From: Crocinitomicaceae bacterium
Lineage (GTDB): Bacteria; Bacteroidota; Bacteroidia; Flavobacteriales_D; Crocinitomicaceae
Direction: 5' to 3'
NCBI GenBank assembly: GCA_029252405.1
Contig: JAQXBM010000002.1
Location: forward strand, 62,001-126,000
DNA: 64,000 nucleotides
Shown: positions 43,989 to 46,062 of the stretch, piece after piece
How the letters are laid out: each line of letters opens with the position of its first letter
Position numbering within the stretch: position 1 is the first letter of the stretch
Made by a program: the position numbers and the translations under genes
Notes under the pieces: model-generated
What the model was told of the DNA's origin: nothing
Seen by the model: the letters and a program-made list of their open reading frames with translations, nothing else
Databases searched by the model: none

Positions 43989-44034
43989 AGAAAATACCGT
44001 ATTGAAATTGGTGCTAAATCAAAAAGTTAATCGT

Positions 44035-44082
44035 AATATTGCGATATAGCAATATTCAAATATCTCGATATTTCAATATTGC
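44035..44082. promoter_or_regulatory. Palindromic ArsR-type operator array
   Basis: Dyad 1: exact 8-bp arms at 44035-44042 and 44049-44056 (AATATTGC / GCAATATT, 6-nt spacer). Dyad 2: exact 7-bp arms 44058-44064 and 44067-44073 (AAATATC / GATATTT). Together 44049-44082 forms a 34-bp near-perfect palindrome. It ends 17 nt before arsR, where autorepressing ArsR proteins bind. Confidence 0.75.
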
Positions 44083-44099
44083 TCTAAAAAGAAAGAGAA

Positions 44100-44429
44100 A
44101 TGGGACTAACAAGAATAGACAAATACACGCAAGAACAAGTTGATCTTGCGCAGCTTCTTAAAGTACTCGGTCACCCCGCACGAATCGCGATTGTGCAATC
44201 AATCATTCGCACGGATTCATGTGTTTGCGGCGATCTAGTTACCGAAATAGGCCTTGCTCAATCCACAATTTCACAGCATTTGAAGGAATTGAAACACGTC
44301 GGAATCATCCAAGGGACCATCGAAGGATCGAGCGTTTGCTACTGTATCAACAAAGAAACGTGGGGTCGGCTAGAGTCTACAGTGAACGAATTATTTAAAT
44401 CAGTAGCGGCCAATCCTGATTGCTGCTAG
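44100..44429 (+). CDS. arsR: ArsR-family metalloregulator
   Basis: 109 residues, winged-helix-turn-helix. LLKVLGHPARIAIVQSII and LAQSTISQHLKELKHVGII form the HTH. The pair Cys41/Cys43 in DSCVCGDL corresponds to the As(III)-binding CxC of E. coli ArsR, and extra cysteines sit in SVCYC and the terminal CC. It probably represses the operon by binding the palindromes upstream and lets go on As(III) or Sb(III). First gene of arsR-arsI-arsC-aqpS. Confidence 0.94.
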   Translation: MGLTRIDKYTQEQVDLAQLLKVLGHPARIAIVQSIIRTDSCVCGDLVTEIGLAQSTISQHLKELKHVGIIQGTIEGSSVCYCINKETWGRLESTVNELFKSVAANPDCC

Positions 44430-44461
44430 ACAAAAAGAACAAAATCATTAAAAAATAGATT

Positions 44462-44986
44462 ATGAAGGAGACAGTTTTTCCAAGAATGCACATGTCATTT
44501 TACGTAAGTGACTTGACGGCAACGGTGAATTTTTACAGCACCTTTTTCGGTGTTCCTGCATCGAAAGTGAAATCAGGTTACGCGAAATATGAACTTGCAG
44601 AACCGGGATTGATCATTTCATTTATTGAAAACAAAGAGCGCGTTCAAGCGAATTTTGGCCACGTTGGAATTCAAGTTGGATCCAAAGAAGAAATGGAACG
44701 TCGATTGGAAATGGCGCGTTCGCAAGGAATAGTTTCGAAGGAGGAAATTGGAACTTCTTGCTGCTACGCTGTTCAGGACAAGTTTTGGGCTGATGATCCA
44801 GATGGAATCCAATGGGAGGTATATTATTTTCATGAAGATGTTGAGTTCAACGATCCAAAATTTTCGGAAGAAGATGCCGCAGCTTGTTGCATGCCTTTGG
44901 AACGTGAAGAGAAGCCAAAACTTCAAATGATGGATTTAACGAAAAATGAAGCTGAGACTTGCGAGCCAGGTTCAGGATGCTGCTAA
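44462..44986 (+). CDS. arsI: ArsI/CadI-like VOC-family protein, putative C-As lyase
   Basis: 174 residues, vicinal-oxygen-chelate fold. The 2-His-1-Glu iron set fits His10, His67 (NFGHVGIQV) and Glu119 (WEVYYF). The adjacent Cys100-Cys101 in TSCCYAVQDKFW matches the cysteine pair needed by ArsI dioxygenases for binding trivalent organoarsenicals such as MAs(III). Two further CC pairs (AACCMP, GSGCC) lie in a C-terminal extension. Enzyme activity is inferred from these motifs and the operon context; the alternative name CadI describes the same family. Confidence 0.82.
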   Translation: MKETVFPRMHMSFYVSDLTATVNFYSTFFGVPASKVKSGYAKYELAEPGLIISFIENKERVQANFGHVGIQVGSKEEMERRLEMARSQGIVSKEEIGTSCCYAVQDKFWADDPDGIQWEVYYFHEDVEFNDPKFSEEDAAACCMPLEREEKPKLQMMDLTKNEAETCEPGSGCC

Positions 44987-45004
44987 CCCCAATCAATTTA
45001 AAAG

Positions 45005-45418
45005 ATGAAAAAAGTATTGGTGCTGTGCACAGGAAACAGTTGTAGAAGTCAAATTGCTCACGGGTATTTGGCACATTTTTCTCCAGAAGGAACCGAAGTG
45101 TTTTCGGCGGGAGTGGAAACGCACGGAGTTAATCCAAAAGCGATTGAAACAATGAAAGCTGATGGTTTGGATATTTCAAATCATACGTCGAACAACATCT
45201 TGGAATACGAAGGACAACATTTCGACTTCGTGATTACCGTCTGCGATAGTGCAAAGGAAAAGTGTCCGTATTTCCCTTCTGATGCGGTGAAGTTTCACAA
45301 CAATTTCCCTGATCCTTATGGAGCAACAGGTACAGATGAGGAAATAGCAGCAGTGTTTGCGGCTGTTCGAGATCAAATCAAAACGTATTGTAAAGAATTC
45401 GTATCCGCCTATTTATGA
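45005..45418 (+). CDS. arsC: Arsenate reductase, low-molecular-weight phosphatase type
   Basis: 137 residues. P-loop CTGNSCR (Cys8, Arg14), plus Cys80 and Cys87 in VCDSAKEKCPYFP, the redox relay of thioredoxin-coupled ArsC (pI258 type). The general-acid Asp is in FPDPYGATGTDEE. It reduces arsenate to arsenite in the cytoplasm, passing the disulfide to thioredoxin. It overlaps the aquaporin gene by 4 nt, so the product arsenite could leave by that channel. Confidence 0.94.
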   Translation: MKKVLVLCTGNSCRSQIAHGYLAHFSPEGTEVFSAGVETHGVNPKAIETMKADGLDISNHTSNNILEYEGQHFDFVITVCDSAKEKCPYFPSDAVKFHNNFPDPYGATGTDEEIAAVFAAVRDQIKTYCKEFVSAYL

Positions 45419-46062
45419 ATCGCTATTTAGCGGAGTTTTTAGCGAGCTTCGTCATGATATTTTTAGGAACCGGATCAATGGTTCTTGCCGATCAAAGTGA
45501 CGGTTGGTTCACCCACCTCGATGTTTCATTGTCGTGGGGATTTGCTGTCGGATTGGGAATTTTTCTCTTCAGTAAATATTCCGGCGCGCACATGAATCCC
45601 GCAGTGACGATTTCATTGTTCTTTCTGAGGGCGCATCCGAAACGAGAATTGTTGGGGTACCTTGCGCTGCAAATTTCAGGTGGAGTTGCCGCGAGTTTGT
45701 TGCTGAGGTTGCTATCTCCCGAAAACGAATTTTTGGGCGCATCACTGCCATCTGGAAGTGCCTGGGAGAGTTTTTACATTGAGTTCTTGTTGACATTCGC
45801 GTTGATGGCAGTTGTTTTGTTGTCAGGATGGTTCAAGAAAGGAGCACTTTTCTTAGTCCCCGCGGCAATAGGAGGCACCGTTTTTCTTGAGGCATATTTC
45901 GCAGGACCGATTACTGGGGCAAGCATGAACCCGGCGCGAAGTTTCGCACCAGCGGTTGTTTCAGGTCATACCGAACACTTGTGGGTGTATTTGATTGCAA
46001 CGACGATGGGAGCAATGGCAGCCAGCGGATTGTGGCTGATTTGGAAACGAAATAAGACTTAA
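45415..46062 (+). CDS. MIP-family aquaglyceroporin, putative arsenite channel (AqpS-like)
   Basis: 215 residues with six membrane helices and both NPA boxes: HMNPAVTI and SMNPARSF. Family channels pass water, glycerol or metalloids. In Sinorhizobium meliloti aqpS replaces the pump arsB in an ars operon and lets arsenite leave down its gradient after ArsC action; the same reading fits here, since no ArsB or Acr3 gene is adjacent. The gene is coupled to arsC (ATGA) and its stop interlocks with that of the convergent gene at 46059. Confidence 0.88.
   Translation: MNRYLAEFLASFVMIFLGTGSMVLADQSDGWFTHLDVSLSWGFAVGLGIFLFSKYSGAHMNPAVTISLFFLRAHPKRELLGYLALQISGGVAASLLLRLLSPENEFLGASLPSGSAWESFYIEFLLTFALMAVVLLSGWFKKGALFLVPAAIGGTVFLEAYFAGPITGASMNPARSFAPAVVSGHTEHLWVYLIATTMGAMAASGLWLIWKRNKT

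Follow-up and report, generated by a model that had tools for sequence, protein, structure and literature searches.

A predicted arsenic-detoxification operon with an ArsI-like protein and a NIP-like channel in a Crocinitomicaceae bacterium, and the occurrence of such channels and Acr3 in its order

We analysed 64,000 nucleotides of DNA from a Crocinitomicaceae bacterium (assembly GCA_029252405.1, contig JAQXBM010000002.1, positions 62,001 to 126,000 of the forward strand; this whole stretch is hereafter the window). Four adjacent genes of the window, which encode an ArsR repressor, an ArsI-like protein, an arsenate reductase (ArsC) and a membrane channel of the MIP family, form an arsenic operon. 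We consider it very probable that this is a complete arsenic-detoxification operon in which a passive, NIP-type arsenite channel serves as the exit instead of a pump. We also lean, if only slightly, towards a broader proposal: that in this order the exit for arsenite is either-or, with channels that have NIP-like selectivity filters and belong to at least two MIP lineages replacing the pump Acr3 in an otherwise constant cassette. On this proposal the channels are not kept beside Acr3 since a channel would short-circuit the pump, and the middle slot of the cassette is likewise swapped between the methylating ArsM and the demethylating ArsI.

The operon and its products

The features of the operon, in window coordinates, are as follows.

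44030..44045, + strand: candidate operator of arsR, a near-perfect palindrome (ATCGTAATATTGCGAT)
44100..44429, + strand: arsR, ArsR/SmtB repressor, 109 amino acids (NF033788)
44462..44986, + strand: arsI-like gene, VOC-fold protein similar to C-As (carbon-arsenic) lyases, 174 amino acids (NF041414, 5c4p)
45005..45418, + strand: arsC, arsenate reductase of the low-molecular-weight-phosphatase type, 137 amino acids (PF01451, 1jl3)
45415..46062, + strand: MIP channel, NIP-like, with filter W/A/A/R, 215 amino acids (PF00230, 7cjs)

All four open reading frames (ORFs) are intact, on the + strand and in the order arsR-arsI-arsC-MIP. A previous model reading of the same letters (the sequence-only reading) had described spacings of 4 to 32 nucleotides. 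The genes are indeed tightly packed, with gaps of 32 nucleotides (arsR/arsI) and 18 nucleotides (arsI/arsC), but the 4 nucleotides between arsC and the channel gene are an overlap (-4). The same 4-nucleotide overlap is present in 11 further loci of the genus that have the arsC-channel pair. Our survey of gene order covered 15 genomes of the genus, and the order arsR-arsI-arsC-channel was identical in 11 of the 11 with a full-score ArsI match (in one of these loci, G244, the contig ends within arsR). Because of the family scores given below and this shared order, we exclude a chance arrangement. The operon is flanked upstream by a gene for a Na+/H+ exchanger (PF00999) and on the other side by a gene unrelated to it, both on the - strand.

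The operon had been taken to start at 44035; the operon itself is real, but its conserved putative operator begins slightly earlier, at 44030. The operator consensus, ATCGTAATATTRCGAT, lies upstream of arsR in 27 of 27 regions, including two variants with arsM (G224 and G194, described below), and in 27 of 28 (19 distinct) once G270 is added; it was not found in the arsR upstream region of G270, whose ars operon is of a different type. The source genome has one exact operator site, before arsR, and a single site with one mismatch, upstream of an ffh-like gene, so we rejected a wider ArsR regulon.

ArsR scores 65.6 bits against NF033788 (cut-off 55), and its cysteines are C41-x-C43 and a C-terminal pair, C108/C109. 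ArsC has the P-loop CX5R (C8-TGNSC-R14) and keeps the cysteine triad C8/C80/C87, as the sequence-only reading had said. It matches PF01451 (71.1 bits) and the structure of a Bacillus-type ArsC (1jl3, E 1.2e-32). It falls below the cut-off of TIGR02691, the pI258 type (138.8 versus 174.3 bits), so we describe it as an ArsC-like protein of this fold and not as a pI258 equivalog.

The ArsI-like protein scores 134.5 bits against NF041414 (cut-off 116), a model that joins ArsI with CadI and does not separate them. Its best solved relative is the C-As lyase of Thermomonospora curvata (5c4p, E 7.7e-24). In the alignment with 5c4p, H10, H67 and E119 correspond to the metal ligands Q8, H65 and E117 of that enzyme, the adjacent cysteines C100 and C101 correspond to its substrate-site cysteines, and K107 takes the position of Lys105, whose mutation is reported to abolish activity (PMC12607644, which also gives the roles of the metal ligands and of the Cys and Lys residues). 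The H/H/E set and the cysteine pair noticed earlier are confirmed by this alignment. The metal-ligand, cysteine and lysine residues are invariant across 19 relatives; they fit a characterised C-As lyase, and the predicted reaction is cleavage of the C-As bond. The structural model is poor towards the C-terminus (pLDDT, the predicted local distance difference test, is below 50 at residues 129-169 and 172-174) and, normalised by query length, it gives low TM-scores (0.30-0.33) to C-As lyases, so our statement about the fold comes mainly from sequence. Among named relatives, the closest ArsI sequences belong to an uncultured Flavobacteriales bacterium (95%) and to Fluviicola sp. NORP8 (87%). The source genome has one ArsI-family gene, the one in this operon.

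ArsI ends in a cysteine-rich tail, CEPGSGCC, encoded at 44960-44983. Tails of the form C-x-[PSG]-..-CC are present on 80 of 87 distinct complete ArsI C-termini (loci L163, L161 and L215 among them), most often as CEPGSGCC, CAPGSGCC or CTPGGGCC. Among 1204 other complete ORFs, 109 have CC within the last three residues, and 89 of those are ArsR. The tail is also found on DUF6428 proteins (PF20001), on the ArsM of G224 (CAPGSVCC), on the ArsM of locus L218 and on a DsbA-like protein of the source genome. From these sequences, the tail may be a common As(III)-binding handle across unrelated proteins (As(III) is arsenite). In genome G187, the ArsI gene (L012:1480-2010) has an in-frame stop within the tail, and the last residues are lost.

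The channel scores 156.3 bits against PF00230 (gathering score 25) and carries two NPA motifs. Against TIGR00861 it reaches 149.4 bits, under the cut-off of 171.25, so we filed it by Pfam and fold only. Rice NIP2;1 is both its best solved relative by sequence (7cjs, E 9.2e-31) and the best fold match of its model (pLDDT 91.1). We assigned the selectivity filter by alignment to GlpF; as a control, this procedure gives W/G/F/R for GlpF and F/H/A/R for AQP4. The filter of the window channel is W/A/A/R, which is unlike that of water or glycerol channels, and on this ground we rejected an ordinary channel of either kind. Plant NIPs of group I have the filter W-I/V-A/G-R (PMC2442057), and the window channel matches it at three of the four positions; H5 is Ala, not Ile/Val. 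The second NPA motif is NPF in the genus channels of L003, L005, L006, L009, L017 and L161 and NPI in those of L035 and L045, while the window channel retains NPA.

The source assembly has 4.28 Mb in 102 contigs and is 99.99% complete. The sequence-only reading had seen neither ArsB nor Acr3 near these genes, and this extends to the whole genome: at E<=10 nothing matched Acr3 (TIGR00832), ArsB (PF02040) or ArsP_1 (PF03773), in a search that did not extend to ArsJ and ArsA. In 14 control genomes the same searches matched Acr3 in 7, ArsB in 6 and ArsP_1 in 9. The genome has one MIP gene, the one in this operon; we therefore rejected the idea of a further MIP or of an Acr3 outside the operon. Genes for an ArsM of the arsenosugar type (549.6 versus 400 bits) and for ArsS (448 versus 300 bits) lie on another contig. 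No operator match was found at that cluster, which also has a CMD-domain protein (L169, G000 contig C43). Since ArsM and ArsS are present, methylarsenite, or MAs(III), may arise within the cell, and ArsI could act on the cell's own MAs(III) as well as on foreign MAs(III).

Channels and Acr3 across the order

That a channel stands in the place of the pump, as proposed from the window, holds for this genome and also as a pattern over 299 genomes of the order. We read the filter of 124 MIP ORFs from these genomes and called it canonical if it was of the water or glycerol type and non-canonical if it was neither. An ars gene other than arsR lay in the stretch read for 48 of 55 non-canonical MIPs and for 2 of 69 canonical ones. 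Because flank widths were unequal between loci, we repeated the count with an equal limit of 1 kb, which gave 45/55 and 2/69; if the ars gene had to be adjacent, on the same strand and within 60 bp, the counts were 42/55 and 2/69. Acr3 was over its cut-off in 127 of the 299 genomes, and these were divided very unevenly: none of the 55 in which a MIP is non-canonical versus 127 of 244 others (Fisher p 9e-16, uncorrected for relatedness). ArsB is almost absent from the order (3/299 genomes, two over the cut-off).

The same division is seen between close relatives. In the genus, the channel occurs without Acr3 in 12 genomes and Acr3 without a MIP in 3 (p 0.0022). Nine genera hold both channel genomes and Acr3 genomes, yet no genome has both over the cut-off; the channel lacks ars linkage in two of the nine, g11 and g48. 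Among 19 genomes with ArsI, the operon includes a MIP in 16, with Acr3 over the cut-off in 0/16, and the remaining 3/3 have Acr3. Finally, of 80 named ArsI loci, 18 have a MIP near ArsI, 13 have Acr3 and 0 have both. (Seven of the 80 end within 2.5 kb, and five had no ArsI ORF picked and are hence unclassified, of which at least L032 and L093 contain a MIP.)

Two relatives show the exchange at one site. G224 has arsR-arsM-arsC-channel and G194 has arsR-arsM-arsC-acr3; in both, the operator is the same and so, judged by eye, are the flanking genes. Thus, one site in the genus, with one operator, carries arsI or arsM, and the channel or Acr3. Elsewhere in the order, DUF6428 often occupies the second slot and a longer ArsC-like protein the third, with either Acr3 or a MIP. 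DUF6428, a family without an assigned function, recurs with arsR on one side and the arsenate reductase or Acr3 on the other (L163:1944-2414, L164, L186-L192 and others), and our literature search found no paper that names it.

To place the channels, we built a tree of 84 rows from 135, dropping rows that were at least 80% identical to a kept row or shorter than 190 amino acids. A branch with support 100/97 separates twenty rows, those of the W/I/x/R type together with F/I/G/R and a single long-branched W/C/I/K, from the remaining 64. Another clade (100/98) holds the xAAR channels, the window channel among them, with rice NIP2;1, AQP4 and AqpZ-like rows (no AqpN reference set was in the tree), and E. 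coli GlpF groups with the W/G/Y/R channels (99/92). Deep placement is unsure, with several long branches. The ars-linked channels thus appear to come from at least two MIP lineages, both with NIP-like filters.

A number of observations weigh against mutual exclusion, or against the channel as the usual exit. Seven of the 55 non-canonical MIPs have no ars gene besides ArsR in the stretch read. Genomes with canonical MIPs also have less Acr3 (11/65 versus 116/234), so lineage may account for some of the effect. If partial matches are counted too, Acr3 appears in 1 of 48 ars-linked genomes (G173, below the cut-off). G171, an Acr3 genome, has a broken NIP-like MIP remnant of 55 amino acids with a stop inside and no ars gene in the stretch read. 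Of the 80 named ArsI loci, 37 have neither exit nearby, so the exit is not always within the operon; 19 of the 37 are titled Cytophagaceae, Spirosoma or Aquirufa and mostly have only arsR, arsI and the longer ArsC-like gene, the rest of these genomes not having been searched for Acr3. And outside the order, half of the 12 columns in a gene table for Frankia list both ACR3 and AqpS in the available part of that paper (PMC4531530), so exclusion is not a rule for all bacteria.

Thirteen further stretches from 12 genomes, with MIP fragments or pieces lacking an ORF, were fetched later and stand outside the comparison of 55 with 244 genomes; their genomes are counted there by their other MIPs or as MIP-less. 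Seven of these pieces are of the glycerol type (the second piece of G001 and those of G013, G030, G154, G243, G245 and G259), and the piece of G012, the second of G050 and both of G117 are divergent. The G171 remnant described above is also one of the thirteen. In G014 (L310), a MIPb-type channel with a broken frame follows arsR-arsM-arsC, and this genome has no Acr3 match.

If channel and pump do exclude each other, genome sequence would predict the direction and the limits of arsenic handling: channel lineages would resist arsenate and methylarsenite but not external arsenite, and pump lineages would resist both. Surveys that count acr3 and arsB alone would label these bacteria as arsenic-sensitive. 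The order would also supply many natural candidates for arsenite channels, with their selectivity filters aligned, for studying how the passage of arsenic, boron and silicon arose in plant NIPs.

Proposed mechanism and its alternatives

From these genes we infer the following scheme for the action of the repressor, the enzyme activities, the conductance of the channel and the direction of flux. Binding of As(III) or MAs(III) to the cysteines of ArsR would release it from the operator. Arsenate would enter by phosphate transporters and be reduced to As(III) by ArsC, and ArsI would cleave MAs(III) to As(III), whether this MAs(III) comes from other microbes or is made by the cell's ArsM. The two routes would converge on As(OH)3, which could leave through the channel down its gradient for as long as the concentration outside is lower. 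A channel and an active Acr3 would counteract each other, and a lineage of the order would therefore keep one or the other. Aquaglyceroporins differ in whether they pass MAs(III): rat AQP9 did so in yeast and Fps1p did not, and in E. coli GlpF contributed negligibly, if at all, to the uptake of MAs(III) (PMC1440775). If the window channel is like GlpF in this respect, ArsI would turn a species that cannot leave into one that can.

The role of ArsI is where another reading comes closest. Instead of being a lyase, ArsI might resemble CadI and act as a thiol protein, either binding As(III) or Cd(II) or aiding thiol-arsenic complexes; the operon would then serve inorganic arsenic only. The NCBIfam model covers ArsI and CadI jointly, a thiol-complex role has been proposed for the CadI of Frankia (PMC4531530), and the cysteine-rich tail of ArsI recurs on the DUF6428 proteins that take the same slot in relatives. 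Nevertheless, we think this unlikely: the metal ligands, cysteine pair and lysine of the lyase are all kept, a lyase is the best solved relative, and two relatives in the genus carry in the ArsI slot ArsM, an enzyme of the same chemistry.

The other two alternatives concern the exit. The chief cargo of the channel could be a methylated arsenical on its way out, or another metalloid on its way in, instead of As(OH)3 leaving. The differences among AQP9, Fps1p and GlpF leave room for this, as do the pairing of the channel with ArsM in place of ArsI in G224 and the channel homologues in arsinothricin clusters (below). Yet most ars-linked MIPs share their stretch with an arsenate reductase, whose product is As(III), and the gene that the channel replaces is an arsenite pump, so we regard another chief cargo as quite improbable. 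It is less probable still that the channel is auxiliary and that the export is done by some active transporter (MFS, ABC or P-type) that is encoded elsewhere in the genome and escaped recognition. Our search of the source genome covered three pump families, with ArsJ and ArsA outside it, which favours such a transporter, but the operator occurs exactly once in the genome, and the absence of Acr3 wherever such a channel occurs would be unexpected for an auxiliary channel. We retain the passive exit of As(III) through the channel as the preferred reading.

Relation to known systems

The arsenic operon of Sinorhizobium meliloti has the order arsR-aqpS-arsC-arsH. There, as here, an aquaporin-family channel replaces ArsB, and AqpS is described as giving a downhill exit to the As(III) produced by ArsC (PMC6205960, PMC9454679). 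The combination that marks such a system, a channel and arsC with no arsenite pump found, is present in our genome. Unlike the S. meliloti operon, this one has arsI, and we liken the two channels by mode of working, not by sequence. The closest match in gene types is in Frankia, where arsR, arsC2 (an arsenate reductase of the phosphatase type) and cadI lie beside aqpS; for strains with that set, resistance is reported to arsenate (>50 mM) and not to arsenite (0.1 mM) (PMC4531530). That phenotype makes the likeness to aqpS drawn in the sequence-only reading seem reasonable as a mode of working. Frankia differs in being a member of the Actinobacteria, in that its channel is called an orthologue of S. 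meliloti SMc02648, and in that some strains also have ACR3 (same source).

Other operons join arsR, arsI and arsC to a pump. The skin element of Bacillus subtilis has arsR-yqcK/arsI-arsB(Acr3)-arsC and exports by the Acr3 pump where this operon has a channel (PMC12607644). On a plasmid of Legionella anisa we found arsR-arsI-arsC-Acr3, which is the order of the window with the pump in the channel's place.

A survey by Yang and colleagues in 2015 counted 18 MIPs among 685 ars operons and 717 transporters; its available text gives no filter classes and no exclusion of Acr3 and has 0 occurrences of ArsI (PMC4435449). Plant NIPs are known to pass As(III) (PMC2442057). Thus, channels in ars operons, ArsI operons with Acr3, and the set of arsR, arsC2, cadI and aqpS in Frankia were already known; the examples from Bacteroidota, the filter classes and the exclusion of channel and Acr3 in this order are new. 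Our literature search returned no report of channel/Acr3 exclusion, of a tie between filter class and ars linkage in Bacteroidota, or of the arsI/arsM swap, although Pommerrenig et al. 2020 may cover part of this. Going by its title, that paper is said to claim an origin of NIPs in bacterial arsenic detoxification.

Outside the order, we inspected seven plasmid-borne MIPs with the filter F/A/A/R, from Priestia, Alicyclobacillus, Calothrix, Oscillatoria, Deinococcus, Klebsiella and Hymenobacter tibetensis. All but the last lie within arsenic or arsinothricin clusters (6/7). Three further MIPs, outside ars clusters, have the filters F/H/S/R, F/H/T/R and V/I/G/R. In the cluster around the F/A/A/R channel on a Klebsiella pneumoniae plasmid (L183), one gene is annotated as a putative arsinothricin biosynthesis ArsM. 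The window MIP has tblastn matches on 1038 Klebsiella plasmid records, not all of the type with the F/A/A/R cluster.

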